Assembly (NCBI GenBank): GCA_030638575.1
Contig: DAOWEJ010000024.1
Location: 1 to 48,312, forward strand
Direction: 5' to 3'
Origin: Deltaproteobacteria bacterium
Lineage (GTDB): Bacteria; Desulfobacterota; Desulfobacteria; Desulfobacterales; JAUWMJ01
Length of the DNA: 48,312 nucleotides
The notes under the pieces were generated by a model. It was given only the letters and a program-made list of their open reading frames with translations. It had not been told where the DNA came from and searched no databases. This document shows, one piece after another, positions 20,003 to 38,658 of the stretch. A program made the translations under genes and the position numbers. Position 1 is the stretch's first letter. Every line of letters begins with the position of its first letter.

Positions 20003-20158
20003 TTGATGCACTCGTAAAAAGTAACGTGGATGGCTAACTAAAAAGTTCTATATACAAAGCGTAGTGGTTTTTTCAGGGACGAGGCAATACACGTAGTATG
20101 CCGAGTGCCTGAAAAACCGCTACAACACAGTAGATGGGACTTTTTACAACGCCATCAA
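20003..20158. repeat. Family B inverted-repeat element, full copy 1
   Basis: 156 bp with 20-nt imperfect inverted ends: TTGATGCACTCGTAAAAAGT on the left and the complement of TTGATGGCGTTGTAAAAAGT on the right. Inside is a long hairpin (GTAGTGGTTTTTTCAGG ... CCTGAAAAACCGCTAC). Other members are at 48090-48245 (full), 22030-22080 and 43582-43627 (halves). No coding capacity. Confidence 0.8.
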
Positions 20159-20406: not shown

Positions 20407-20605
20407 AGACTGGATCCTATCGGTACTTCTGGAGGAATATGCGTGTTTTGTGATTTATATTAGAAGAAATTTTTAGGCATCCTCTCCATATGGCGGGTTC
20501 TATGCCTAATTGACCGCTAGAATATATCATGATTTTATACCTGTCAAGCGCTTTCGGCCTATTTTTAATATATTTTTTTTCTATAAATGTGTTATAGCTA
20601 ATAAA

Positions 20606-22018
20606 ATGATTGAGCTCGATTCTAATATTTTACCTAAAAAAAAAGGCGCTTATATTGTCGGAGGCTCCATCCGGGATCTTATTCTTGGAAGATCCCCTAC
20701 CGATTACGACATAGCTGTTTTAAAAAATCCGGAAGAATTTGCAGAAAATATTGCAGAAAAAACATCGGGCCGTATTGTTGAAATGGGAAAACCTGCACAA
20801 ATGATATTCCGGGTGGTTTCTAAAAACAACATTTTTGATATCTCATATGCAATCGGAGCATCTATTGAGGATGATCTTTCAAAAAGGGATTTTACTATAA
20901 ATGCTATTGCCTGTGATTTATCGTCCGGTAAAATTATCGACTGCACAAACGGCTTAAAGGACATTTCCGACAAAAAAATTCGCATGGTCTCAAAAGAAGT
21001 TTTTCAAAAAGATCCGATCCGTCTTTTAAGAGCCTTTAGATTGGGAGCATTTCTAAATTTCAGTATAGAACCTCAAACAATTTCTGCCATAAAAGAAAAT
21101 GCAAAACTATTACAAAAATCTGCCGGCGAAAGGATCAGGGCGGAACTTTTCAAAATCCTCGGCACATCAAATTCTCATTATTTTCTAACTCAAATGGCTA
21201 AAACCGAAGTTCTGCAGGCCACCTTCCCTGAACTCGCCGGCCTGCAAGGGTGTTTTCAAAACAGACATCATGCTTTTGACGTCTTCGAACATACCATGAA
21301 AGCTTATTTACATCTTGAAACAATACTCAACGATTGTAAAAAATTTCTACCAGAAGCATACGGACAATTTGACCCGTGCACAGATTCCGGAAAAAGTGGG
21401 CTTTTAAAATGCTCAATACTGCTGCATGATATAGGAAAACCTTCAGCTCGAACTATAGACAACAAAGGAAATATCCATTTCTATGGGCATGGGAAAAAGA
21501 GTGCCGACATGACAAAAAAAATCAGCAAGAGGCTGAAATTTTCAACCAGGGAGGCATCTTATATTGATTTTATTATTCGCAACCACATAAGGCCTTTGTT
21601 TCTCTTTACCGGTCATCAAAAGAAAACAATAACACAAAAAGGGATTACACGATTCTTTTTAAAATGCGGCAGGCTTTCACCGGATCTTCTTATTCATACA
21701 ATGGCTGATATTAAAGGAAAAGGGAATAAAAATGATGAGAGGAACAAAGCATTTACAGACTTTGCAAAGGAAATGATCAAATATTATTTCTCCTTTTTTC
21801 GAGCCGAAAAGCTAAAACCCCCACTTATAACAGGTAATGACCTGATTAATGATTTCGGTCTGACACCGTCGCCTTTATTTAAAACAATTTTAAGCCGTGT
21901 GGAAGAAGAAAGGCTGTCGAAAAATATCATGAACAGACAAGAGGCCCTTCAATTCGTGAAGGAAATCATAAATTCTGATATCTGCAAGCGTTCACGGAAC
22001 GTTGAAATTAGAAAATAG
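20606..22018 (+). CDS. tRNA nucleotidyltransferase / poly(A) polymerase family, with HD domain
   Basis: 470 residues from the ATG at 20606; the frame is open further upstream but the conserved part starts here. The nucleotidyltransferase core has GGSIRDLILGRSPTDYDIAV (GG/RRD-type and DxD motifs) and SKRDFTINAIACDL. An RNA-binding helical region with DPIRLLRAFRLGAFLNF follows, then an HD domain near residue 275 (LLHDIGKPSARTID ... HGKKSADM). Such proteins add CCA to tRNA or A tails to RNA; sequence alone does not decide which. The tRNA in this window encodes its own CCA. Confidence 0.88.
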   Translation: MIELDSNILPKKKGAYIVGGSIRDLILGRSPTDYDIAVLKNPEEFAENIAEKTSGRIVEMGKPAQMIFRVVSKNNIFDISYAIGASIEDDLSKRDFTINAIACDLSSGKIIDCTNGLKDISDKKIRMVSKEVFQKDPIRLLRAFRLGAFLNFSIEPQTISAIKENAKLLQKSAGERIRAELFKILGTSNSHYFLTQMAKTEVLQATFPELAGLQGCFQNRHHAFDVFEHTMKAYLHLETILNDCKKFLPEAYGQFDPCTDSGKSGLLKCSILLHDIGKPSARTIDNKGNIHFYGHGKKSADMTKKISKRLKFSTREASYIDFIIRNHIRPLFLFTGHQKKTITQKGITRFFLKCGRLSPDLLIHTMADIKGKGNKNDERNKAFTDFAKEMIKYYFSFFRAEKLKPPLITGNDLINDFGLTPSPLFKTILSRVEEERLSKNIMNRQEALQFVKEIINSDICKRSRNVEIRK

Positions 22019-22029
22019 AAATGGGAAAT

Positions 22030-22080
22030 TTGACGGTTTCGTAAAAAGTATCGCCGATGGCTAAGTAGAAAGTTCCATAT
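22030..22080 (+). repeat. Family B element, left half only
   Basis: Begins TTGACGGTTTCGTAAAAAGT and continues through GATGGCTAAGTAGAAAGTTCCATAT, matching the left ends of the other family B copies. No right inverted end is seen. Just after it, CCCCGCTAAAAATCAGCGGG forms a small hairpin (22085-22104) that could terminate cca transcription. Confidence 0.6.
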
Positions 22081-22191
22081 ACCCCCGCTAAAAATCAGCG
22101 GGATAAAAAGGCGCATCAAATCTCCCGCATTTCAAGTTTCAAGCCGTGAACGACTACCATTTTAATTTAATCCCTGACTTTTCATTCAGAC

Positions 22192-25091: not shown

Positions 25092-25163
25092 CAACACATC
25101 CATGCCCTTGATGACGCGAAACTTGCAGGCAATGAAAAAGATATGACCATGCTCTTAAAATAA
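25092..25163 (+). pseudogene. 3' scrap of a DnaQ-like exonuclease gene
   Basis: In frame after the ORF6N piece, the sequence reads IHALDDAKLAGNEKDMTMLLK and then a stop. The part HALDDAKLAG repeats the exonuclease III motif of the intact gene at 26696-27232 (HRALDDAKLAG), and the DNA is nearly identical over about 25 nt (CTTGATGACGC-AAACTTGC). It seems to be a leftover of a second exonuclease copy joined to the ORF6N remnant by recombination. Confidence 0.55.
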
Positions 25164-25190: not shown

Positions 25191-26207
25191 ATGCCAAAAG
25201 AACTTACAAACTCAACGATAGAACGCCAGAATGTTTTGAACAACCCCTATGCAGTTACCGAAATTCAAAAAGCTGTAGATCTCAGATGCATCTTTTTTGA
25301 AGGCCGCCATTGGTTAAACAAGGAGCAGATCGCTTCTTTTTTTGAAGTCACGCCGCGTACCATCGATAATTATCTCAACAAATATGAAAGCGAATTGCGT
25401 CATAACGGTTACGAAGTGCTCAAAGGTATCCGATTGAAAAAGTTGAAGAAAGCTATAATTAAGCAGTTTGATGACGAAATTAATTTCATTACCAAAACAA
25501 CGACTCTCGGCATATTCGATTTCAGGGCGTTTCTTAATATAGCGATGTTGCTGACCGAAAGCGAACGGGCCCGCGTGTTACGGCAGACCATTCTGGATAT
25601 AGTTATCGATACCATAAATCAGCGTACCGGCGGCAGCACCAAATATATCAATCAGCGTGACGAAGATTTTATTATTGCCTACTTTCAGGAAGAGAATTAC
25701 CGCAAGGAATTTACCAATGCGTTGCGGGATTATGTGGATATGGGTAATTTTAAATACCCGATGTACACCAATAAAATTTATGTCAGCATCTTTCGTGAAA
25801 ATGCACAAGAATACCGCAAGATACTAAAGCTGCACGAGAAAGATAAAGTTCGCGATACCTTTTATTCCGAGGTTCTTGATCTGGTGGCTTCCTACGAATA
25901 CGGATTTGCCAAACTGCTGGAAGCTGCATATGAAAAACGTCAGATAAAACTAAACTCATGGGATGTAGATCTGCTCTTTAAGGAATTTGAGAAACAGCCG
26001 CACTGGAAACCCCTGGTTGAGAGAGCCAGAAACAAGATGGCAAGCCGTGACCTGGCGTTCAGGGATGCACTTCATTTGCAGCTAAAAGAATATATTATGC
26101 CTGTTCAAGCTGATGAATTTGAACGTTTTCTTGGAGAGAAAAGCAAGGAGTTGGCAGAACGCCTGGAAGAAGCCAAAGATGTTTTCAAACGGTTAAAGGA
26201 ACGTTAA
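25191..26207 (+). CDS. RhuM-like DNA-binding protein, likely antitoxin/regulator of the Fic pair
   Basis: 338 residues. The N-terminal part resembles a winged-helix DNA-binding segment (WLNKEQIASFFEVTPRTIDNYLNKYESELRHNGYEVLKG) as in RhuM virulence-type proteins. The middle continues with TTLGIFDFRAFLNIAMLLTESERARVLRQTILDIV and RDEDFIIAYFQEENYRKEFTNAL, and the C-terminal 60 residues are charged and helical. The stop is 2 nt before the start of a Fic/Doc gene, so the two are probably translated together. By analogy with Phd-Doc and related pairs it could neutralise and regulate the toxin; that role is inference. Confidence 0.7.
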   Translation: MPKELTNSTIERQNVLNNPYAVTEIQKAVDLRCIFFEGRHWLNKEQIASFFEVTPRTIDNYLNKYESELRHNGYEVLKGIRLKKLKKAIIKQFDDEINFITKTTTLGIFDFRAFLNIAMLLTESERARVLRQTILDIVIDTINQRTGGSTKYINQRDEDFIIAYFQEENYRKEFTNALRDYVDMGNFKYPMYTNKIYVSIFRENAQEYRKILKLHEKDKVRDTFYSEVLDLVASYEYGFAKLLEAAYEKRQIKLNSWDVDLLFKEFEKQPHWKPLVERARNKMASRDLAFRDALHLQLKEYIMPVQADEFERFLGEKSKELAERLEEAKDVFKRLKER

Positions 26208-26209
26208 TA

Positions 26210-26644
26210 ATGGGATTTGTCTACCCTACGCTTGAACAAGCCATGGAAATACATCAGAAAACCGTTGAGGTCAGCGGTGGCGGAGCAATGGGAAAATTGG
26301 ATATGGGAAGGCTCGAAAGTGTCCTTTGCCATATCCAAAACGATGACTACTATCCGGCTTTTGAAGACAAACTGACCCATCTCTTTTTCGGCGCCTGTAA
26401 ATTCCATTGTTTTGAGGACGGAAACAAACGGATCGCCATTTCATTAGGCGCCCAGTTCTTATTGCTGAACGGTTATGTTTTCGTTACCAAACGGTTTATC
26501 CATGAAATGGAAAATATCAGCTATCATGTCGCAACGGGAAAAATTGATAAAGACCTGCTAAAAGAGATTATAAGCGCTGTCATTGAAGATGACATGGAAC
26601 GTGAAGGTCTGAAACTGAAGATATTGATGGCAATTTCGAACTAA
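26210..26644 (+). CDS. Fic/Doc family toxin
   Basis: 144 residues, the size of Doc. The active-site loop reads HCFEDGNKRIA (His66 to Arg74), close to the Fic HPFxxGNxR and Doc HxFxxANKR motifs. The Gly at position 71 is Fic-like and the GNKR end is Doc-like. YPTLEQAMEIHQ at the start is typical of Doc. Fic proteins add AMP to target proteins and Doc phosphorylates EF-Tu; which one applies here cannot be told from sequence. The gene follows its presumed antitoxin by 2 nt and precedes the exonuclease-cas3 unit by 51 nt. Confidence 0.85.
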   Translation: MGFVYPTLEQAMEIHQKTVEVSGGGAMGKLDMGRLESVLCHIQNDDYYPAFEDKLTHLFFGACKFHCFEDGNKRIAISLGAQFLLLNGYVFVTKRFIHEMENISYHVATGKIDKDLLKEIISAVIEDDMEREGLKLKILMAISN

Positions 26645-26695: not shown

Positions 26696-27232
26696 ATGCT
26701 GTCGAATAACCATACAAAATCAACCGATCGGTATGTAGCGCTGGATGTGGAAACAACCGGTTTTTCGCCACAAAATGGTGACAGGGTAATAGAAATAGGC
26801 GCTGTTGCTATTGAGGGTCAGAGCATTGTCGCTGAATTCAGCATGCTCATTGATGCCGGCAAAAGGATTCCATGGCAAGTCCAAAAGGTGCATGGCATAA
26901 CCAATGAAATGCTATATGGCGAATCAAAGCCGGATGAAGTGTTGCCGGAGTTTTACAAGTTCATTGCCGGAAATATCCTGGTAGCTCACAATGCGAGCTT
27001 TGATATCGGATTTCTAAGACACGAATTTGCTTTATTAGGTATGAGCCTGAATAACAGGTCTTTATGCACACTAAAAATGAGCAGAAAGCTATATCCGAAT
27101 CTGCCCAATCATAAACTGGAAACAGTGAGCCGGTATTTGCTTGGAGAATCATGCGAACAGATGCAGATGCACAGAGCGCTTGATGACGCAAAACTTGCTG
27201 GCATGATATGGCTTGAAATGGGAAAGATATGA
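26696..27232 (+). CDS. Stand-alone DEDDh 3'-5' exonuclease (DnaQ-like), coupled to cas3
   Basis: 178 residues. Exo I is YVALDVETTGF (Asp17, Glu19), exo II is VAHNASFDIGFL (Asp103), and exo III is HRALDDAKLAG (His159, Asp164), so all five DEDDh residues are present. The rest is the compact epsilon-type fold. The stop overlaps the start of cas3 by 4 nt (ATGA), a strong sign of co-translation. Family knowledge: DnaQ-like exonucleases trim prespacers for Cas1-Cas2, and in some type I-E systems the domain is fused to Cas2. Here it is a separate protein at the other end of the operon and Cas2 has no fusion. A role in adaptation is inference. Confidence 0.88.
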   Translation: MLSNNHTKSTDRYVALDVETTGFSPQNGDRVIEIGAVAIEGQSIVAEFSMLIDAGKRIPWQVQKVHGITNEMLYGESKPDEVLPEFYKFIAGNILVAHNASFDIGFLRHEFALLGMSLNNRSLCTLKMSRKLYPNLPNHKLETVSRYLLGESCEQMQMHRALDDAKLAGMIWLEMGKI

Positions 27233-29949
27233 GTGTTTCATCCGACATTATTTATCGGTATTGGGGCAAGGCGCGGCCTGATGACAAAACCGGTCCGGCA
27301 TTCCATCTTTTGCCATACCATTGCCTGGATGTGGCGGCGGTGGGGTGGATTTTGCTAAACCCTCAAAAATCGCTTTGTCTTCGCATGGCAACACAGCTTG
27401 GGATTGAATCACGCTGGCTGCGTGACTTTTTTGTCTTTTGTTTGGCTCTTCACGATATGGGTAAATTTTCGAGGGCATTTCAGGGGTTGAAAACAGATCT
27501 ATCGCCTGATTTGGTTAAAGCCAATCCAAGGATGCAATACACTGAGCGGCACGATACCCTTGGCTTCTTGTTATGGCGAGAGAATCTATCTACTCAACTT
27601 GAGAAACTGCCTTCCGGTAACAGTGAATGGCTAAACAAAATTGAGCCTTGGATGGAAATTGTTACGGGTCACCACGGCATTCCGCCGAAAAAATCAGGTA
27701 GCCGAATTTCAAATTTTTTTGAACAGGAAGATGAAGAAGCGGCCTGTCATTTTGTATGGGACGTATACAGTATGTTCCTCTCTGAGTTTGATCATACCGC
27801 TCTGCTCGATAGCGACTTGAAACAACGATTGAAAACCGTCTCATGGCAACTGGCTGGGATTGCAGTGATGGCGGATTGGCTGGGATCAAACCAGGAGCAT
27901 TTCAAGTACTACAGCAAACCGGAGGAGTTGGTTATTTATTGGCATAAACACGCTTTACAATCAGCAAAAAAAGCGATTCAATCCATGCCCGCAAAGCCAA
28001 AGACGAGCCGGTTTCAAGGTCTAAACAACCTGTTTCCTTCGTTTATTCCGACACCATTACAAAAATACGCAATCAATGAACCGTTAAATGATAAACAACA
28101 ACTTTTCATTCTTGAAGATGTCACTGGTGCTGGTAAAACAGAAGCCGCTCTGATTCTGACACACCGTTTGTTAAGTGCAGGATTAGCGGATGGTTTGTAC
28201 GTGGCATTGCCAACTATGGCTACCGCCAATGCCATGTACAAGAGGGTGGGTGAAGTGTATCGCCGTTTTTACGAAAGCAGCAGCGATTTACCTTCGTTGA
28301 TATTGGCGCATGGAGCACGGGAACTATCTAATGCGTTTCGTAAATCAGTATGTCTCCCGGAAAATCAAGCAGAAGACCTGAACTACACAAATGGCTATGA
28401 TGAGCTGGAACAGGAGCTGAGCGCCACAGCTTATTGCCATACATGGCTGGCCGATAGTCGGAAAAAGGCTTTGTTGGCCGATGTTGGCGTTGGTACCCTT
28501 GATCAGGCATTGCTGGCTGTATTGCCTGCTCGTCACCAGTCCTTGCGGCTTCTTGGCCTTGGACGTAAAGTGTTGCTGGTCGATGAGGTTCATGCTTATG
28601 ACAGCTACATGCAGAAATTGCTTGATGCTTTGCTGGAAATGCATGCAAGGCAGGGAGGCAGTGTGATTCTGTTGTCGGCCACCTTGCCGCAAACCATGCG
28701 TGAAAATCTGGTCGAGGCTTTTCATCGCGGCCTTGGCGATGCCACCCCTGAAATCCGTAGTGATGCCTATCCGTTGGCCACCCATTCACCGGCAGCAGGT
28801 GAGTATGAAAAATATATTGACACCCGCAAAGAAGTTAAACGCACAGTAACGGTCAGGCAGTTGGATGCAGAAGATGCGGTAATTGAGCAAATTCAGCAGG
28901 CTGTGAGTAATGGGCAGTGTGTTTGCTGGATTCGTAATACGGTGAAAGCGGCGCGTAAAAGTCATCGAACTTTGGCGCAATGTGAATGGATGGACAAAGA
29001 TCATTTGCATCTGTTTCACAGTCGTTTTGCCATGATAGACAGACAACAAATTGAAGAAGAAACCTTGAAGCGATTTGGCGACAAGTCGAAGCATGTAGAT
29101 CGGAAAGGGCGGGTGATAATTTCTACACAGGTGGTTGAGCAATCACTGGACCTGGATTTTGATGTGTTGATCACCGACCTCGCACCGATTGACCTTATCA
29201 TTCAGCGGGCAGGCCGTCTGCGACGGCATATTCGTGATGTACAAGGCAACAGGATCAGGGATTTGAACGTAAAAGATCAGCGCGGCACTCCAATTCTTTA
29301 TCTTTTTGCACCTGATCCAAAGGAAGATGCTGATGAAAACTGGTTGAAAGCGCAGCAGAAAGGCACGCAGGCGGTTTATCCACATGTCGGTCAGCTCTGG
29401 CTGACGGCAAAGCTGTTGCTGGGGAATGGAAAAGGAAAGTTCACCATGCCGGACGATGCCAGAAGCCTGATTGAAGGCGTCTATTCGAATAGCGTTGAAG
29501 ATGTCATTCCAAAAGAACTAAAAAAGAATTCCTATGAGGCAATTGGCAAAGATCAATCTAAAAAAAGCATGGCAAACCTGAACGTGATCAAACTAAACAA
29601 GGGCTACACCAGATCCAGTGGCGATTGGGATGAAGAAACCCACATTCCTACACGATTGACCGAAGAAGAGACATTTTCTATTGCTCTTGCCCGACTCAAT
29701 CAGGGCCAACTGCAACCCTATGCCAAAACTGCGCACCATGAATGGGCCATGAGTGTTGTAAAAATACCGGAGTGGGAATGGAAAAAGGCAAAGCAGCAAA
29801 TTACTTCAACCATGCAAAAACTAATTGAAGATTTAAAAACCGAGGTCAAAGCCCTGCGCTGGCTTGAGGTTTTTCCTCTCACAGATGAAACAGCAAATTA
29901 CTACAATGCCAAAGACGGCTGGCAACCTGAAACAGGAGAAAGTCAATGA
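27229..29949 (+). CDS. cas3: CRISPR-associated helicase/nuclease Cas3, type I-E
   Basis: 906 residues. The HD nuclease domain is N-terminal (FHLLPYHCLDVA with His31; LALHDMGKFSRAFQ with His75-Asp76; TGHHGIPP). The superfamily 2 helicase follows, with Walker A EDVTGAGKTEAALILTHRL near residue 300, DEVH box LLVDEVHAYDSYM near 450, SATLPQTMRE, and the motif VI region TQVVEQSLDLDFDVLITDLAPIDLIIQRAGRLRRH near 640. It unwinds and degrades target DNA after recruitment by Cascade. The stop overlaps the cas8e start by 4 nt. Confidence 0.96.
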   Translation: MSVSSDIIYRYWGKARPDDKTGPAFHLLPYHCLDVAAVGWILLNPQKSLCLRMATQLGIESRWLRDFFVFCLALHDMGKFSRAFQGLKTDLSPDLVKANPRMQYTERHDTLGFLLWRENLSTQLEKLPSGNSEWLNKIEPWMEIVTGHHGIPPKKSGSRISNFFEQEDEEAACHFVWDVYSMFLSEFDHTALLDSDLKQRLKTVSWQLAGIAVMADWLGSNQEHFKYYSKPEELVIYWHKHALQSAKKAIQSMPAKPKTSRFQGLNNLFPSFIPTPLQKYAINEPLNDKQQLFILEDVTGAGKTEAALILTHRLLSAGLADGLYVALPTMATANAMYKRVGEVYRRFYESSSDLPSLILAHGARELSNAFRKSVCLPENQAEDLNYTNGYDELEQELSATAYCHTWLADSRKKALLADVGVGTLDQALLAVLPARHQSLRLLGLGRKVLLVDEVHAYDSYMQKLLDALLEMHARQGGSVILLSATLPQTMRENLVEAFHRGLGDATPEIRSDAYPLATHSPAAGEYEKYIDTRKEVKRTVTVRQLDAEDAVIEQIQQAVSNGQCVCWIRNTVKAARKSHRTLAQCEWMDKDHLHLFHSRFAMIDRQQIEEETLKRFGDKSKHVDRKGRVIISTQVVEQSLDLDFDVLITDLAPIDLIIQRAGRLRRHIRDVQGNRIRDLNVKDQRGTPILYLFAPDPKEDADENWLKAQQKGTQAVYPHVGQLWLTAKLLLGNGKGKFTMPDDARSLIEGVYSNSVEDVIPKELKKNSYEAIGKDQSKKSMANLNVIKLNKGYTRSSGDWDEETHIPTRLTEEETFSIALARLNQGQLQPYAKTAHHEWAMSVVKIPEWEWKKAKQQITSTMQKLIEDLKTEVKALRWLEVFPLTDETANYYNAKDGWQPETGESQ

Positions 29950-31631
29950 ATTTAATTACCGACCCATGGATTCCGGTTATTCGTAAGGATGGTACTTCCG
30001 ATACAATAATGCCCTGGCAGATAGCAGAGACAGAAAATCCAGTCATTGAAATCAATGCGCCTCGGCCTGATTTTCAGGGAGCATTATATCAGTTTCTTAT
30101 TGGACTGTTACAGACTTGTTTTGCTCCTGAAGATGAGGATGAGTGGGAAGACTATTGGAAAAAATTCCCAGAGCCAACTGAATTGATGAACGCTTTTGGA
30201 AAAGTGGAAGATGCTTTCGAGTTGGACAATTCAGATGGACCTGCGTTTATGCAGGAACACCCGGATACGGATAAACATTATGATATTTTTGAAAAGGCAG
30301 AGTGGTTGCCAGTTGAAGATTTGATTGGCGGAGCATTGAGCGACAATACTAGAAAAAACAACAAGGATCTATTTATCAAAACTAAAGAGAGCGAGCTTAT
30401 TTCTCCCTACTGGGCGGCCCTGGCTTTGTTTAATTTGCAAATTACCGGAGTCTTGGCTTGGGGAAAGCATAGGGTCGGCCTCAGAGGAAATGCTCCATTA
30501 ACGACATTGGTAATACCCGATTCTGATCAATGCATTTTATGGCAAAAGATATGGCTGAATGTGATCTATCAGGAGGATATTGATTTAATTCCCGGCGATT
30601 CAGCGAAAAAAGAGCTTTCGGATATTTTTCCTTGGATGGGAAAAACACGTACCAGCCCCAACAAGAAGCCAACTTCACCGTCTGATGCGAATCCCATCCA
30701 ACACTATTGGGCGATGCCAAGGCGCATCCGGTTGAAGGTTGAACCGGTCAAAGAAAAAAAATGTGACTTATCGGGAGAGAAGCTTGAGCATGGGGTAAGG
30801 TTTTATAAGCGTATCCATGATGGCGTTTATTACACCAACGGCTGGGTTCATCCTCTAACGCCTTATACTCGATCAGCAAAAAACAAATTTCCAAAGCCGA
30901 TTGAAGGGAAATACGCTGGTAAAGGATTCAGGCAGTGGGTATCACTTAATTATGACGAATATGCTGATGACGAAAACAAGAAATTACGCTGGGGACGTTC
31001 ATTAGCGGTGAAGCACTATTACGATGAAAAAAAACACAAAATTGCGGTTAACACTAAACTTTGGTGCTTTGGCTATGATGCCGTGAATGCCAATGTAAAA
31101 TGCTGGTACGAATCCATTATGCCGACATTTCAGGTACCAAATGATGATGTCGATGCTTTAAAAGATCATGTTTCCGAAGCCCTACAAATTGCGTATCAAT
31201 TAGTAGAGGCACTTCGGTTTTCAATTATTCGGGCATGGTTCAGACCTCAAACAGATAGCAACGGAAAGAAAAAGTGGAATCATGTGATAAGCGCTATCAA
31301 CAAAACTGGGCATTTAAGCACCTATAAGAACATTGAATATGATTATTGGGAGAGTCTTGAAGAGGAGTTTTCAGCCATGCTTGACAAATTGATTGTTTAC
31401 GGACAAACCCCTGGCAAGCCGTTACAGATTTATGTACAGTGGATAAAAGCTATTCAAAAACACTGCTTCAACTATTTTGATCGGAATGCTTTAGGTGAGG
31501 CTGTTGATGAAAGGGATTTGAGGCGGGTGGTGGAAGCAAAAAGTTATCTTCGTGAAGCTTTGTTCCCATATAAAAAGTCATTTTTAAAAGAAATTAATGA
31601 ATTCAGAAAACAGAGGGAGGTGGCAGCGTGA
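29946..31631 (+). CDS. cas8e: Cascade large subunit Cas8e (CasA/Cse1)
   Basis: 561 residues. The start MNLITDPWIPVIRKDGTSDTIMPWQI and the later block ALALFNLQITGVLAWGKHRVGLRGNAPLTTLV are typical of Cse1. Its C-terminal part is a four-helix bundle type (residues about 390-555). In Cascade it recognises the PAM and recruits Cas3. Length is a little above the usual 500. The start overlaps cas3 by 4 nt and its end overlaps the cse2 GTG by 4 nt. Confidence 0.94.
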   Translation: MNLITDPWIPVIRKDGTSDTIMPWQIAETENPVIEINAPRPDFQGALYQFLIGLLQTCFAPEDEDEWEDYWKKFPEPTELMNAFGKVEDAFELDNSDGPAFMQEHPDTDKHYDIFEKAEWLPVEDLIGGALSDNTRKNNKDLFIKTKESELISPYWAALALFNLQITGVLAWGKHRVGLRGNAPLTTLVIPDSDQCILWQKIWLNVIYQEDIDLIPGDSAKKELSDIFPWMGKTRTSPNKKPTSPSDANPIQHYWAMPRRIRLKVEPVKEKKCDLSGEKLEHGVRFYKRIHDGVYYTNGWVHPLTPYTRSAKNKFPKPIEGKYAGKGFRQWVSLNYDEYADDENKKLRWGRSLAVKHYYDEKKHKIAVNTKLWCFGYDAVNANVKCWYESIMPTFQVPNDDVDALKDHVSEALQIAYQLVEALRFSIIRAWFRPQTDSNGKKKWNHVISAINKTGHLSTYKNIEYDYWESLEEEFSAMLDKLIVYGQTPGKPLQIYVQWIKAIQKHCFNYFDRNALGEAVDERDLRRVVEAKSYLREALFPYKKSFLKEINEFRKQREVAA

Positions 31632-32203
31632 ATTACAATTTTCTTAGTTTTGAAGAGCAAAAAAGTTTGCAACACTGGCATCGCCGGCTGGATGACAATC
31701 GCGGAGACCGTGCCCGATTGCGGCGGGCTGAAAGGCCGGAAGATATTTTATTGACCGATGCCTTCTTTAACTTTCTACAACGGATGCCGGAAGGCTGGCG
31801 GGAGAGAATGCCTATGCTTACCAGCGCGGCAGTGGCGGGATTATTGTCGCATGTTAAAGAAAACAGGCAAGCCTTAAGCCGAGGCTATCAACCCAAAGAT
31901 AAGAACAAACAAAGAAATATAGCCTCTTTTGCTGAACAACTGGCAACGCCGGCCAAAAGTAAAAAGCCCCCAATGAGTGAGTTGCGTTTTCAGCAATTGC
32001 AGAAGAGCTTGACCACTGATGACTTTTACCGTCGCATTTTAAGAGCGATTCGCTTACTTGATGGCAAGGTTAATATATCCTCTCTGGCTAATGACATAAT
32101 TCACTGGAATCAGGAGTTTGATAATCAAATTGACCGTGAGCCGGCCAAACGACTGGCCGTGCGCTGGGCAACCGACTATTTCACCGCATTACAAAAAAAA
32201 TAA
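31628..32203 (+). CDS. cse2: Cascade small subunit Cse2 (CasB, Cas11e)
   Basis: 191 residues, GTG start overlapping the cas8e stop. Characteristic parts are HWHRRLDDNRGDRARLRRAERPEDILLTDAFFNFL near the N-terminus and MSELRFQQLQKSLTTDDFYRRILRAIRLLDGKVNISSLANDIIHWNQ in the middle. Cse2 dimers line the belly of Cascade and hold the displaced DNA strand. Confidence 0.94.
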   Translation: MNYNFLSFEEQKSLQHWHRRLDDNRGDRARLRRAERPEDILLTDAFFNFLQRMPEGWRERMPMLTSAAVAGLLSHVKENRQALSRGYQPKDKNKQRNIASFAEQLATPAKSKKPPMSELRFQQLQKSLTTDDFYRRILRAIRLLDGKVNISSLANDIIHWNQEFDNQIDREPAKRLAVRWATDYFTALQKK

Positions 32204-32220
32204 AACAAAGGAGAATGATT

Positions 32221-33846
32221 ATGAGCCGTTTTATTCAATTACATCTGTTGACAGCCTATCCACCAGCCAACTTAAACCGCGATGACATGGGTAGCCCAAA
32301 AACCGCGAAGATGGGTGGCTATGATCGACTGCGCGTTTCTTCGCAATGCCTGAAACGGACATGGCGGACTTCTGAGATTTTTGAAACAGCCATTTCCAAA
32401 GGTATTAGAACAAAAATGATCGGTGTTGATGCTTTCAAAAAGTTATCCGAATTTTCCGTACTGAGCAAATCAGAACGAGAAGAAATTGCAAAAAATATTG
32501 CCCGTGTTTTTGGAAAGTTAAAGAGCAATTCCATGAAGTTGGAAACCATGGCTTTCATTTCTGAAACGGAACAAGCAAAGATCGACAATATTATCAGTGG
32601 ATTCAGCAAAGGTGTTGGCAGGGCCACAGAAGAATCTAATGCATTAGGCGTTAAGCTGTTCAGAGTACTGTCATCTGATATTCAGGCTTCGGTAAAAAGC
32701 CTTATTGATATCATAAATGGAGGACATGAAAGTGCAAAGCTGACTACCGACTGGAACAAAGAACTGAAAAAACAGAGTAAAAAATTCAAATCAACCGAAG
32801 ACAAAAGCACCTATGACTATCTTACGAAAATGATTGATAACAAATCAGAGTGGCTGGATAGCGTTGCCGGGGATACAGAGGTGCGTGAAGATCAACTTGA
32901 GCTGTTTTTTGCTGATGAAGCTGCCAAGTTAACGAAAGCGATACTAAAAAAAATATCGATTGGGGCTTTGTTATCCGGAAAGAATGCCAAAGAAATCGAT
33001 TATGGTGAAGTGAAGCATAAAGAACATATTCTTTTATGTAAGGGATGGGAAGAGCAGATCGATACTTGGGTTGAAGATGTAAAAAAGTCTGAAGATGATG
33101 ATTTTATGTCAGAAGTTAATATTGAAAATTTGAAACTGGCGGTGTCACATGTTGCCATTGCAAAATCATCAATATTAACCAATGAGCATACCAATGCAGA
33201 TATCGCTTTGTTTGGCAGAATGCTGGCATCCAGTCCTGCTTTTAATGTAGAAGCCGCCTGTCAGGTAGCACATGCGATCAGTGTACATCCTGTGGTTATT
33301 GAAGACGATTACTTCACTGCCGTTGATGATCTGAACAATGGAATGGAAGATATGGGGGCAGCACACATTGGTGAAACCCGTTTTGCTGCTGGTCTATTTT
33401 ACTCCTATATCTGCATCAACAGGGAATTACTGATCCAGAATTTGGATGGAAATGAAGAGCTGGCCAACAAAGCCATTCGCGCTTTGACCGAAGCGGCGGC
33501 CAAGGTGGCCCCTGAAGGTAAGCAAAACAGCTTTGCCTCACGCGCTTATGCCTCCTATGTGTTAGCCGAGAAGGGCGATCAGCAGCCGCGTTCGTTGTCG
33601 GTGGCGTATCTGAAGCCGATCAATCACCGTGAAAATAATGATTTTATTGGAGATGCAATTGATGCTTTGGTCAAACAAAAAGATAGTTTTGACAGAGTGT
33701 ATGGCAAATGTGCTGATAACCAATATGAATTGAATGTTCTTGCTTATATGAATGAAAAAAAAGACAAGGAAGATGATAAAAGTTCGAGCAAACAGGAAAC
33801 TCCTTTAGAAAAATTGCTAAACTTTGTTGGACCAATAGGAGGCTGA
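32221..33846 (+). CDS. cas7e: Cascade backbone subunit Cas7e (CasC/Cse4), unusually long
   Basis: 541 residues from the second ATG (32221), which is 7 nt after AAAGGAG and gives the usual start MSRFIQLHLL. The first 50 residues (LNRDDMGSPKTAKMGGYDRLRVSSQCLKRTWR) and residues 326 onwards (ADIALFGRMLASSPAFNVEAACQVAHAISVH ... FTAVDDL ... GAAHIGETRFAAGLFYSY) are standard Cse4. The helical part between SSQCLKR and ADIALFGRM is about 285 residues, against roughly 120 as I recall for E. coli CasC, so about 170 residues are extra. The reading frame is intact. Cas7e forms the six-subunit backbone on the crRNA. Confidence 0.93.
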   Translation: MSRFIQLHLLTAYPPANLNRDDMGSPKTAKMGGYDRLRVSSQCLKRTWRTSEIFETAISKGIRTKMIGVDAFKKLSEFSVLSKSEREEIAKNIARVFGKLKSNSMKLETMAFISETEQAKIDNIISGFSKGVGRATEESNALGVKLFRVLSSDIQASVKSLIDIINGGHESAKLTTDWNKELKKQSKKFKSTEDKSTYDYLTKMIDNKSEWLDSVAGDTEVREDQLELFFADEAAKLTKAILKKISIGALLSGKNAKEIDYGEVKHKEHILLCKGWEEQIDTWVEDVKKSEDDDFMSEVNIENLKLAVSHVAIAKSSILTNEHTNADIALFGRMLASSPAFNVEAACQVAHAISVHPVVIEDDYFTAVDDLNNGMEDMGAAHIGETRFAAGLFYSYICINRELLIQNLDGNEELANKAIRALTEAAAKVAPEGKQNSFASRAYASYVLAEKGDQQPRSLSVAYLKPINHRENNDFIGDAIDALVKQKDSFDRVYGKCADNQYELNVLAYMNEKKDKEDDKSSSKQETPLEKLLNFVGPIGG

Positions 33847-33847
33847 T

Positions 33848-34627
33848 ATGGACTATCTACTGTTCCATCTCTATGGCCCGATGGCCAGTTGGGGCGAAAT
33901 TGCAGTGGGCGAAACCCGTCACACAGCGAGTTATCCAAGCAAGTCGGCCATTATAGGTCTGATGGCGGCAGCGTTGGGCATAAAGCGTAACGATACCGAA
34001 AAACAGCAACAGATGCAACAAGGCTATGTGTTTGCTGTGGAGGTCTATTCTCAAGGAACGCTTCTGCGGGATTATCATACGGCACAGGTGCCTGACTCGG
34101 TTGGCAAGTTCACTTACCGCACACGCAGGGATGAACTGGTGCTTGGAAAGGTTCGTCTGGGAACTATTCTTTCCAGCAGGGAATATCGTTCGGATGCGAT
34201 GGCTCTGGTGGCTATTAAAGCATTGCCAAACGCCCCTTATGATTTACAAACCATTAAAAATCATCTTGAGAAACCGAGGTTTCATCTTTATCTAGGTCGA
34301 AAATCATGTCCCTTGGCTGCACCGTTGAATCCTCAGATCAGCGAGGATAAAAATAATTATTACGAGGCATTCAAGGTTTATAAGCATAAGCCTATGATGC
34401 CGACAAATAAATTATGTGAAGGCACTATATCTGTCCGCGATGCCTATTGGTTTCGCCAGGCTGATGATAAGCGCTATTATTGGGAAGGTGAAGCGTCCGA
34501 TTTTTCCGATACGCTCGATATGAGCCGGATGCAAACCCGAATTAGACACGATCAGCCTTTGTCTCGGAAACGCTGGCAGTTTTCACCACGCCAGGAACAC
34601 TACCTTTACTGTCAGGGAGGTAAATAA
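33848..34627 (+). CDS. cas5e: Cascade subunit Cas5e (CasD)
   Basis: 259 residues, GGAGG before the ATG, 1 nt after cas7e. The N-terminal RAMP segment LLFHLYGPMASWGEIAVGETRHTASYPSKSAIIGLMAAALGIKR is diagnostic, and KPMMPTNKLCEGTISVRDAYW follows in the C-terminal half. Cas5e binds the 5' handle of the crRNA. Confidence 0.95.
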   Translation: MDYLLFHLYGPMASWGEIAVGETRHTASYPSKSAIIGLMAAALGIKRNDTEKQQQMQQGYVFAVEVYSQGTLLRDYHTAQVPDSVGKFTYRTRRDELVLGKVRLGTILSSREYRSDAMALVAIKALPNAPYDLQTIKNHLEKPRFHLYLGRKSCPLAAPLNPQISEDKNNYYEAFKVYKHKPMMPTNKLCEGTISVRDAYWFRQADDKRYYWEGEASDFSDTLDMSRMQTRIRHDQPLSRKRWQFSPRQEHYLYCQGGK

Positions 34628-35493
34628 TGTATTTTTCCCGTATCCGAATAAAACCGGAAATCTTCAAAAGTACCCAACTGGCACAGGTTCTTTCCGATAA
34701 TTCCTACAATATGCATCGGCTGCTATGGGATCTTTTTTCAGATGAAAAACAGAGGAATTTTCTCTACCGGAAAGAAATTGCCAGCGAACAACTCGGAATA
34801 CAGGCTGGTGTTCGCGGAGAACCTATTTATTATCTTGTTTCTTCAACAAGTCCTTCTTCAGAAAACCCCTTTTTCCAGGTAGAGGCGAGAGAGTATCAAC
34901 CAAAGCTGGAGAAAGGAGAGATGCTTAGGTTTGAGATAAGAGCCAATCCGGTGATTACCAGAAATGGCAAAAAGCATGATGTTGTCATGGATGCGCAAAG
35001 AACATTTTTGACATCACTATGTGAAGAACTCAATCTACAATTTCGTTTGCCCTCTGCTCCAAAGAAACATGATTTTAAGAAAGCACTTTTAACTCACGGA
35101 GGACACGCATTGGATGAGCGGCTGACGACACTGCTGAAAAACGATTTCAGTTACTCTGAACGCCTGCGCCAATCAATACAGTTGCATAGCAAGATAGAGT
35201 GGTCAATCAAAGCTGTTGTTGATGATGCGCTTGAAAAATGGATGATAAGGCAGGGCCAAAGGAATGGTTTCTTGCTTGACAAAGATGATAACAACCAATG
35301 CAAACTTCAGAATAGCGCTTACCGCTGGCATTCAATAAAAGCCGAAAAAGAAAAAAAGTCGGGCTTCAGTTCTGTAGATTTTCTTGGCAATTTGGAGATT
35401 ATAGATGTTGAGAAATTTACAAAGGCACTGTTTGGGGGGATTGGGCGAGCCAAAGCCTTTGGTTGCGGCTTATTGCTCATTCGGCGGATCTGA
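34627..35493 (+). CDS. cas6e: CRISPR endoribonuclease Cas6e (CasE)
   Basis: 288 residues; the ATG shares one base with the cas5e stop. The start MYFSRIRIKPEIFKSTQLAQVLSDNSYNMHRLLWDLF includes the catalytic His of Cas6e, and the C-terminal glycine-rich loop reads FGGIGRAKAFGCGLLLI. It cuts the pre-crRNA at the base of the repeat hairpin (CCCCAC/GTGGGG here). It is longer than the E. coli protein (about 200), mostly between residues 105 and 250. No frame damage. Confidence 0.93.
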   Translation: MYFSRIRIKPEIFKSTQLAQVLSDNSYNMHRLLWDLFSDEKQRNFLYRKEIASEQLGIQAGVRGEPIYYLVSSTSPSSENPFFQVEAREYQPKLEKGEMLRFEIRANPVITRNGKKHDVVMDAQRTFLTSLCEELNLQFRLPSAPKKHDFKKALLTHGGHALDERLTTLLKNDFSYSERLRQSIQLHSKIEWSIKAVVDDALEKWMIRQGQRNGFLLDKDDNNQCKLQNSAYRWHSIKAEKEKKSGFSSVDFLGNLEIIDVEKFTKALFGGIGRAKAFGCGLLLIRRI

Positions 35494-35809: not shown

Positions 35810-37025
<1,216 letters not shown>

Positions 37026-37104: not shown

Positions 37105-38658
37105 ATGTTCCCCACATGCGTGGGGATGAACCGGTTTAATCGGTGTCGAAGAATACAAACGAGAGATGTTCCCCACATGCGTGGGGATGAACCGTAAATC
37201 ATAAACATCTGCGATTATGTCTTTAAATGTTCCCCACATGCGTGGGGATGAACCGTCCGCTTCCTCCTCCCGTCCCCCCGTTGACCGATGTTCCCCACAT
37301 GCGTGGGGATGAACCGTTATTATAAACCGTCTTACCCTGGAGCGTCACATGTTCCCCACATGCGTGGGGATGAACCGGTTTTCGAAACCCAGTGGTGCAT
37401 CTCGTTTATATGTTCCCCACATGCGTGGGGATGAACCGTCTTACACTTTCGGTGCGACAGATGAAGGCTAATGTTCCCCACATGCGTGGGGATGAACCGC
37501 CTTTTCTTGGTGCTCTGCCAGTGCCGAAAACATGTTCCCCACATGCGTGGGGATGAACCGTATAGACATCGAAAGACAGGGGGTTGATATGAATGTTCCC
37601 CACATGCGTGGGGATGAACCGAAGTATAGGGATTTGTTTTGTTGGTAATTATGATGTTCCCCACATGCGTGGGGATGAACCGATGAAGTTTCAGATGAGA
37701 CTGAAAGATCAAGAATGTTCCCCACATGCGTGGGGATGAACCGCGGGGTGATTGATTACGGTCGCCACTTGAGAGATGTTCCCCACATGCGTGGGGATGA
37801 ACCGATTTCATTTTAGATCAATTCATTTTGTAGGGGATGTTCCCCACATGCGTGGGGATGAACCGACACAAGCGCAATTTAGTTAAATATTACAGAGATG
37901 TTCCCCACATGCGTGGGGATGAACCGGGTGATAAACATCAGGTATAGGCTGCAATATCATGTTCCCCACATGCGTGGGGATGAACCGGATATAGAAATGA
38001 AATCATTACCAGACGACTTATGTTCCCCACATGCGTGGGGATGAACCGAGCTTTCAATATTATCGGATATCACCTCGTCGATGTTCCCCACATGCGTGGG
38101 GATGAACCGCCCAATATCCGTCTTTACGCTCGATCCATTCGATGTTCCCCACATGCGTGGGGATGAACCGTTTGAATTATCAAGCAAATACGCCTTGCAT
38201 AAATGTTCCCCACATGCGTGGGGATGAACCGCTCCTATCGCCAACATTGACTTGACAAATATAATGTTCCCCACATGCGTGGGGATGAACCGAGGTGTGT
38301 CGGCGGTCCTGATTAATGATTTAAATGTTCCCCACATGCGTGGGGATGAACCGAACTATACTATAAGTTAATAACCGAAGCCAAAATGTTCCCCACATGC
38401 GTGGGGATGAACCGGGTGATTGGGCGGTAGAGTTTCTTGAGCGGGTATGTTCCCCACATGCGTGGGGATGAACCGAAATAATCCCCCCAACGCTTTCGAG
38501 CTTGGCTATGTTCCCCACATGCGTGGGGATGAACCGTGCCGGTCGAAGATAATATTCCGGAAAAACCAATGTTCCCCACATGCGTGGGGATGAACCGGTC
38601 GAACTGTGACTGAGCGAGGGTTTTGGTGAATGTTCCCCCCATGCGGGGCGTGGATTGA
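37105..38658 (+). CRISPR. Type I-E CRISPR array, 26 repeats and 25 spacers
   Basis: Repeats of 29 nt start at 37105 and recur every 61 nt to 38630. Each begins ATGTTCCCC, has the hairpin CCCCAC-ATGC-GTGGGG and ends GATGAACCG. All 25 spacers are 32 nt and all differ. Repeats 1 to 25 look identical by eye. The last one (38630) is degenerate at the 3' end, as expected for the leader-distal end, but in an unusual way described under findings. Open frames on the minus strand here (rich in SSPRMWGT and VHPHACGEH) are artefacts of the repeats. I see no spacer matching elsewhere in the window, by eye only. Confidence 0.98.

Follow-up and report, generated by a model that had tools for sequence, protein, structure and literature searches.

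The window, by which the whole analysed stretch of 48,312 nt from a Desulfobacterota genome (contig DAOWEJ010000024.1) is meant, holds a type I-E CRISPR-Cas operon that opens with a gene for a DEDDh exonuclease. The following features were distinguished:

25104..25146, + strand: scar, a remnant of the exonuclease-gene 3′-end that has lost 14 nt and lies shortly before the Fic pair (DNA comparison)
25191..26207, + strand: first gene of the Fic pair, PADLOC candidate PDC-M59A (PADLOC match)
26210..26644, + strand: Fic-domain protein, PDC-M59B (PADLOC and Pfam-type profile match)
26696..27232, + strand: DEDDh (DnaQ-type) 3′-5′ exonuclease, first gene of the type I-E operon (ORF, profiles, alignment, model)
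27229..27232, + strand: ATGA overlap of the exonuclease stop with the cas3 start, the cas3 ATG lying at 27229 (ORF coordinates)
27229..29949, + strand: cas3, type I-E (NCBIfam Cas3 core E=8e-65; Pfam Cas3_HD E=7e-47)
29946..31631, + strand: cse1/cas8e (profile match)
31628..32203, + strand: cse2/cas11 (profile match)
32215..33846, + strand: cas7e, 543 aa (profile match)
33848..34627, + strand: cas5e (profile match)
34627..35493, + strand: cas6e (profile match)
35810..36733, + strand: cas1e (profile match)
36714..37025, + strand: cas2e, unfused, 103 aa (profile match)
37105..38597, + strand: CRISPR array, 25 repeats of 29 nt (array analysis)

In regard to its type, the operon has the full I-E composition, with cas3, cse1, cse2, cas7, cas5, cas6, cas1e and cas2e accompanied by an array in which all 24 of 24 spacers measure 32 nt. 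The exonuclease ORF starts with ATG, encodes 178 aa and ends with a TGA stop at 27230-27232. A first-pass annotation had described a 4-nt overlap between this stop and the cas3 start, an unfused Cas2, and an exonuclease placed at the opposite end of the operon, and each of these could be confirmed, with ATGA at 27229-27232, a Cas2 of 103 aa and the exonuclease as the first gene. The Cas7e of the window (543 aa) holds an insertion of about 200 residues, because its homologues align only up to residue ~118 and again from ~319.

The Fic pair is a neighbour that stands outside the conserved unit. As a general rule, a link between the exonuclease and Fic was rejected, since among 31 loci Fic matches were found only in L001 and L002, which are the window's own DNA, and in a second survey of 80 loci only in L035. 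Further upstream, a 53-nt repeat with 81% identity between its copies (20003-20055 and 22030-22082) flanks a nucleotidyltransferase/HD-like gene at 20510-22018, labelled by eye, and the segment 20001-20170 of the window matches positions 13091-13270 of L035 in reverse.

The exonuclease among DEDDh proteins

The protein is matched by Pfam RNase_T (E=6e-37, profile search) and by the PADLOC model for stand-alone CRISPR-associated DEDDh proteins, PDLC01247 (E=5e-40), a catalogue entry that is broad. All five DEDDh residues are present, as the first-pass annotation had noted (D17, E19, D103, H159 and D164) and invariant across an alignment of 28 sequences, and the active site is complete in all 18 of the 18 operon-linked homologues. 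An AlphaFold2 model (mean pLDDT 91, pTM 0.85) consists of the exonuclease domain alone, following approximately 9 poorly predicted N-terminal residues. Its top Foldseek match is the DnaQ domain from S. thermophilus DGCC 7710 (8h18), a part of that organism's type I-E Cas2-DnaQ protein; the next places are taken by PolC and Pol III epsilon, and Cas2-DEDDh (8fyc) is found at rank 16.

Identity with Pol III epsilon or PolC was considered and dismissed, as the similarity is only general and stays under the equivalog cut-offs. The DnaQ, PolC and DinG models match below their curated cut-offs, TIGR01406 reaching 119 bits against an equivalog cut-off of 222.7, and among the 25 matches listed only TIGR00573, a broad dnaq subfamily domain, passed. 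In the window's assembly, which is ~76% complete, the exonuclease is the sole match of its kind, and none of 2092 matching plasmid records holds a plasmid-borne homologue reaching 60% identity.

Stand-alone CRISPR-associated DEDDh proteins are already catalogued, and the window gene, matching their model, belongs to that kind. Such exonucleases are described as widespread ancillary components of every CRISPR-Cas type (PMC10284694). What is added to the catalogued proteins is the operon-first position, the 4-nt coupling, and the occurrence of one subfamily before I-E, I-C and I-F operons. No description of a cas3-coupled exonuclease came up in the literature searched, whose coverage leaves most subscription journals outside.

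With the Cas2-DEDDh proteins of Megasphaera and S. thermophilus DGCC 7710 the window exonuclease shares the fold, the active site, the type I-E context and an operon with Cas1 and the effectors, but it is a separate gene at the other operon end, and Cas2 is unfused. The suggested comparison with Cas2-DnaQ fusion domains placed 15 sampled fused domains in one clade (SH-aLRT 99) with the window protein outside. Because the fused domains stand apart from the window's family, CRISPR systems have recruited DEDDh proteins on more than one occasion, with the window's family as a parallel recruitment; unrelated DEDDh lineages also hold the same position before cas3 (L121/L122 and L170). A second DEDDh gene at the cas3 flank was found in 0 of 12 Cas2-DEDDh loci with a readable flank. 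Mutual exclusion of the stand-alone and fused forms was nevertheless not accepted, as the contrast of 0/12 with 18/65 (Fisher p=0.058, Bacillota L186 being counted as unfused though its Cas2 is cut by the contig end) is not significant and is confounded by phylum.

Linkage to the first position of cas operons

The frequency with which such a gene leads a cas operon was surveyed in both directions. In the forward test, Cas1e was searched for in two phyla: that of the window (395 genomes, of which 34 gave a match) and that of G306, from which the Nitrospirae locus L041 comes (245 genomes, 13 giving a match). Genomes already known to carry the exonuclease were added (G229, G303, G304, G307, G308, G314 and G317), while G306 and G315 were both in the draw and already known as carriers. 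Genes in the fetched stretches were identified with profiles built for this analysis. The count took in non-duplicate loci having a cas3 of more than 500 aa that was preceded by 600 nt or more of sequence (n=44), and all others were left out, both here and in the count of 43 loci given below. Two exact or near duplicates, L145 (of L137) and L165 (of L119), were dropped from tree and locus counts, and the other surveys retain contig overlaps such as L045/L160, L043/L119, L041/L132, L042/L163, L053/L164, L039/L162 and L033/L244.

The neighbourhood search suggested for Desulfobacterota thus brought out the coupled exonuclease repeatedly: a DEDDh gene lies directly 5′ of cas3 in 17 of the 44 I-E loci of Desulfobacterota and Nitrospirota, a share that leans upward through the added known carriers, with 15 genes of the window's family and 2 of another. 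When cas1 was also to be visible, 16 of 43 loci were linked (14 of the window's family, 2 of the divergent lineage). The remaining 27 of the 44 loci, from both phyla, hold no such gene, and many of them have closely related Cas1. Among Bacillota, 26 of 299 genomes had Cas2e; there one locus (L170) carries a third DEDDh lineage 5′ of cas3, and Cas2-DEDDh fusions were present in 15. In Pseudomonadota (14 of 349 genomes with Cas1e), no DEDDh gene near cas3 was found in 12 readable loci, and no fusion. An alignment-based scan of named genomes gave 80 loci, with the gene directly before cas3 in nine.

In the reverse test, family members were collected at E<=1e-36 from 297 genomes of the phylum, giving 16 carriers. 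Seven of the 16 members lead a cas operon, six before a type I-E cas3 and one (L235, genome G039) before a type I-F cas1 (TIGR03637 E=4e-142) in an operon whose cas2 is fused to cas3. Four are clearly away from cas genes (G072, G101, G216 and G112), and five are unjudgeable, as the contig ends or nearly ends downstream. Relatives are therefore not confined to the Fic pair or to unrelated contexts; the CRISPR linkage of the exonuclease is real and conserved, and chance adjacency to cas3 is ruled out by the surveys.

The coupling itself varies. An in-frame cas3 start overlaps the exonuclease stop by 4 nt in 9 of 18 linked genes, including the divergent lineage of L121 and L122, while the overlap is 8 nt in one further gene and 20 nt in another, and gaps of 10 to 754 nt lie between cas3 and the other seven. 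Two wide gaps, in L136 and L137, hold an ORF6N-type gene (Pfam ORF6N was tested for L136). Since cas1 follows the exonuclease in the I-F operon and AbiD precedes cas3 in a type I-C operon, what the gene is tied to is the leading place in the cas operon, and not specifically cas3.

A WYL-type regulator adjoins the exonuclease in L235 (9628-10611), L160 (8354-9322), L113 (4844-5905, on the cas1 strand) and L038 (8570-9528), Pfam WYL being tested for L038 only and the other labels given by eye. Such neighbours suggest a regulator-exonuclease pair.

Orphan relatives and exchange of the effector block

The five nearest relatives (L032-L036, from Desulfobacterales and kin), among which the window protein groups in the tree (SH-aLRT 98), share 81-85% identity with it and lie beside unrelated genes. 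These closest relatives are mostly orphans, in ordinary contexts or among Fic, DUF1016, RhuM-like and AAA genes. Cas1e was not detected at high identity in their genomes, three of which (G299, G300 and G301) hold another Cas1. L036 is truncated, and L032-L035 compared with the window give dN/dS of 0.08-0.15, indicating purifying selection.

The orphans may be derived, having lost cas3, because cas3-start-like remnants follow some copies. One fragment in L044 retains the gene end followed by ~31 nt resembling a cas3 start, and short sequences of this kind come after the stop in L034, in the second copy of L035 and in L037 (the last by eye, with no chance estimate). In L037 a DUF1016/YhcG gene is followed by a Cas3 HD start best matching Cas3c, where the contig ends; L048 lies near Cas2 and a CARF-ADA gene, where its contig likewise ends. 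The genome of L034 holds a second copy (L234), with a damaged C-terminus, 5′ of the type I-C operon in which AbiD stands between exonuclease and cas3; this locus also has a cas4-like gene, labelled by eye. Within L234 (4641-15293) a RhuM-like gene, again by eye, stands between cas7 and cas4, so that defence-type genes are nested in the cas operon.

The scar upstream of the Fic pair in the window (25104-25146) is 43 nt long, and in related Desulfobacterales further 3′-end pieces of the exonuclease gene lie beside Fic, DUF1016 and RhuM-like genes (L035 10001-12359, L044 5095-8472). It looks as though exchange has taken place more than once at the end of this gene.

The trees of Cas1 and Cas3 are in strong disagreement. 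In three locus pairs, the exonuclease, Cas1 and Cas2 were kept while the block from cas3 to cas6 differs as a unit. Identities of exonuclease, Cas1 and Cas3 are 97%, 97% and 30% in L112/L113; 71%, 99% and 26% in L114/L164, where the host Rho is identical; and 54%, 91% and 36% in L121/L122, with Rho at 84%. In L112/L113 the DNA ceases to be homologous at the exonuclease stop; in L114/L164 this happens ~42 nt ahead of the stop, and in L121/L122 3 nt beyond it. Homology returns at cas1 or as much as ~1.2 kb upstream of that gene; inside the exchanged block short scattered matches were found, one in L114/L164 and several in L121/L122. The exonuclease gene thus flanks the exchanged block at one end, and the adaptation genes flank it at the other. 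Retention of the exonuclease and cas1 is no proof of function, however, because the flanks of any replaced block stay, and both may be mere flanks of the exchanged one.

General co-inheritance of the exonuclease with Cas1, suggested by these closest pairs, is unsupported over 14 loci of the window's family, where a Mantel comparison of distances gave r=0.09 (p=0.33) with Cas1 and r=0.28 (p=0.055) with Cas3; nominal correlations, uncorrected for the seven genes tested, were obtained with Cse1 (r=0.36, p=0.012) and with Cas5 (r=0.30, p=0.029). In L114/L164, the exonuclease diverged much faster than Cas1 (dN/dS 0.49 vs 0.03). An effect of the exonuclease on spacer-length precision was also discarded, there being no meaningful difference in the share of spacers at the array's mode among loci with the stand-alone gene (342 of 350), without it (1112 of 1166) and with the fusion (112 of 117).

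Possible role in spacer acquisition

Our best reading, to which we give about an even chance, is that of a prespacer 3′ trimmer acting in trans during adaptation, by analogy with enzymes of known activity. In the Cas2-DEDDh trimmer-integrase, the DEDDh site trims 3′ overhangs to the Cas1-Cas2 ruler and later removes the PAM, and its authors imagine unfused exonucleases doing likewise in trans (PMC10284694). Beyond the observed fold, active site, operon position and conserved linkage, we infer substrate, partner and step as follows. The exonuclease would be the operon's first product and would shorten the 3′ overhangs of Cas1-Cas2-bound prespacers to the length set by the integrase's ruler, and it would also take off the PAM-side tail, just as the fused domain in Cas2-DEDDh does in cis. 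Through translational coupling to cas3, the trimmer and the fragment-generating Cas3 would be made together, which would suit primed adaptation. Besides the linkage and the complete active sites, this reading is favoured by the cas1 neighbour in the I-F member, by the three locus pairs and by the Cas2-DEDDh loci, in which no second DEDDh gene was seen at the cas3 flank. It is weakened by the lack of correlation with Cas1 distances, by the many loci that do without the gene, by the uniform spacer lengths and by the constrained orphans in genomes where Cas1e was not detected.

E. coli DnaQ (epsilon) and ExoT are DEDDh exonucleases as well, encoded by housekeeping genes outside the cas locus. These two trim Cas1-Cas2-bound prespacers in vitro (cited in PMC9699676) and are dispensable for adaptation in vivo, and the E. 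coli enzymes making prespacer 3′ ends are described there as not determined (PMC9699676). Cas4, which processes the prespacer 3′ end and the PAM, is the proposed functional counterpart of the window exonuclease. Its fold is unrelated to that of DEDDh exonucleases.

Alternatively, the exonuclease could belong with Cas3 and act in interference, clearing the single-stranded 3′ ends left by Cas3 or fragmenting its products. Such a role would fit the way in which most linked loci couple the gene directly to cas3, the family member 5′ of the type I-C cas3 operon, and distances that track those of Cas3 and Cse1 slightly better than those of Cas1. On the other hand, the exonuclease did not travel with cas3 in the three locus pairs, 27 of the 44 I-E loci do without it, and the I-F member precedes cas1, though in that operon cas2 is fused to cas3. 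A role in interference appears unlikely. Somewhat less improbable, yet still doubtful, is an exonuclease of a defence hotspot with general repair or anti-element duties, placed repeatedly before cas operons with no dedicated CRISPR role. It would account for the closest relatives being orphans or standing among Fic, DUF1016, RhuM-like and AAA genes with gene fragments left behind, for the intact and constrained orphans L032-L035, and for the four family members clearly off cas genes among 16 (five being unjudgeable). It sits poorly with the seven members found in matching orientation at the head of a cas operon, a frequency well beyond what chance would give for a gene standing alone, and with unrelated DEDDh lineages in the same place (L121/L122, L170), and the cas3-start-like remnants leave room for the orphans being derived.

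It could also be that the conserved position mainly reflects recombination, with the 3′ end of the gene serving as a joint for the exchange of effector blocks and cargo. The ends of homology at or near the exonuclease stop in all three pairs, the ORF6N-type genes (L136, L137) and AbiD (L234) between exonuclease and cas3, and the 3′-end scar beside Fic in the window point in this direction. Such an origin would leave the intact active site of all 18 linked copies and the purifying selection unexplained, and no recombinase or attachment site was identified; we regard it as very improbable.

Returning to trimming in trans, the first-pass annotation had spoken of a dedicated prespacer trimmer. Trans trimming stands as the best reading from analogy and context, but the word dedicated is weakened, because the nearest relatives (81-85%) are mostly orphans under purifying selection and 27 of 44 I-E loci have no such gene. 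More tentatively, and with rather low confidence, a portable adaptation module can be envisaged, in which a subfamily recruited independently of Cas2-DEDDh would take the first place in I-E, I-F and I-C operons and be kept with cas1-cas2 while effectors are swapped at the gene end, so paralleling Cas4 and the trimmer-integrase while acting in trans.

In E. coli it is unsettled which enzyme completes prespacer 3′ ends in type I-E systems lacking Cas4, as many nucleases may be redundant there. A stand-alone candidate encoded in the operon would make this question addressable, by deletion of a single gene and by trans-complementation of Cas1-Cas2 in vitro, and the pairs of loci that share the exonuclease and Cas1 but not the effectors are natural tests of the module that it serves.
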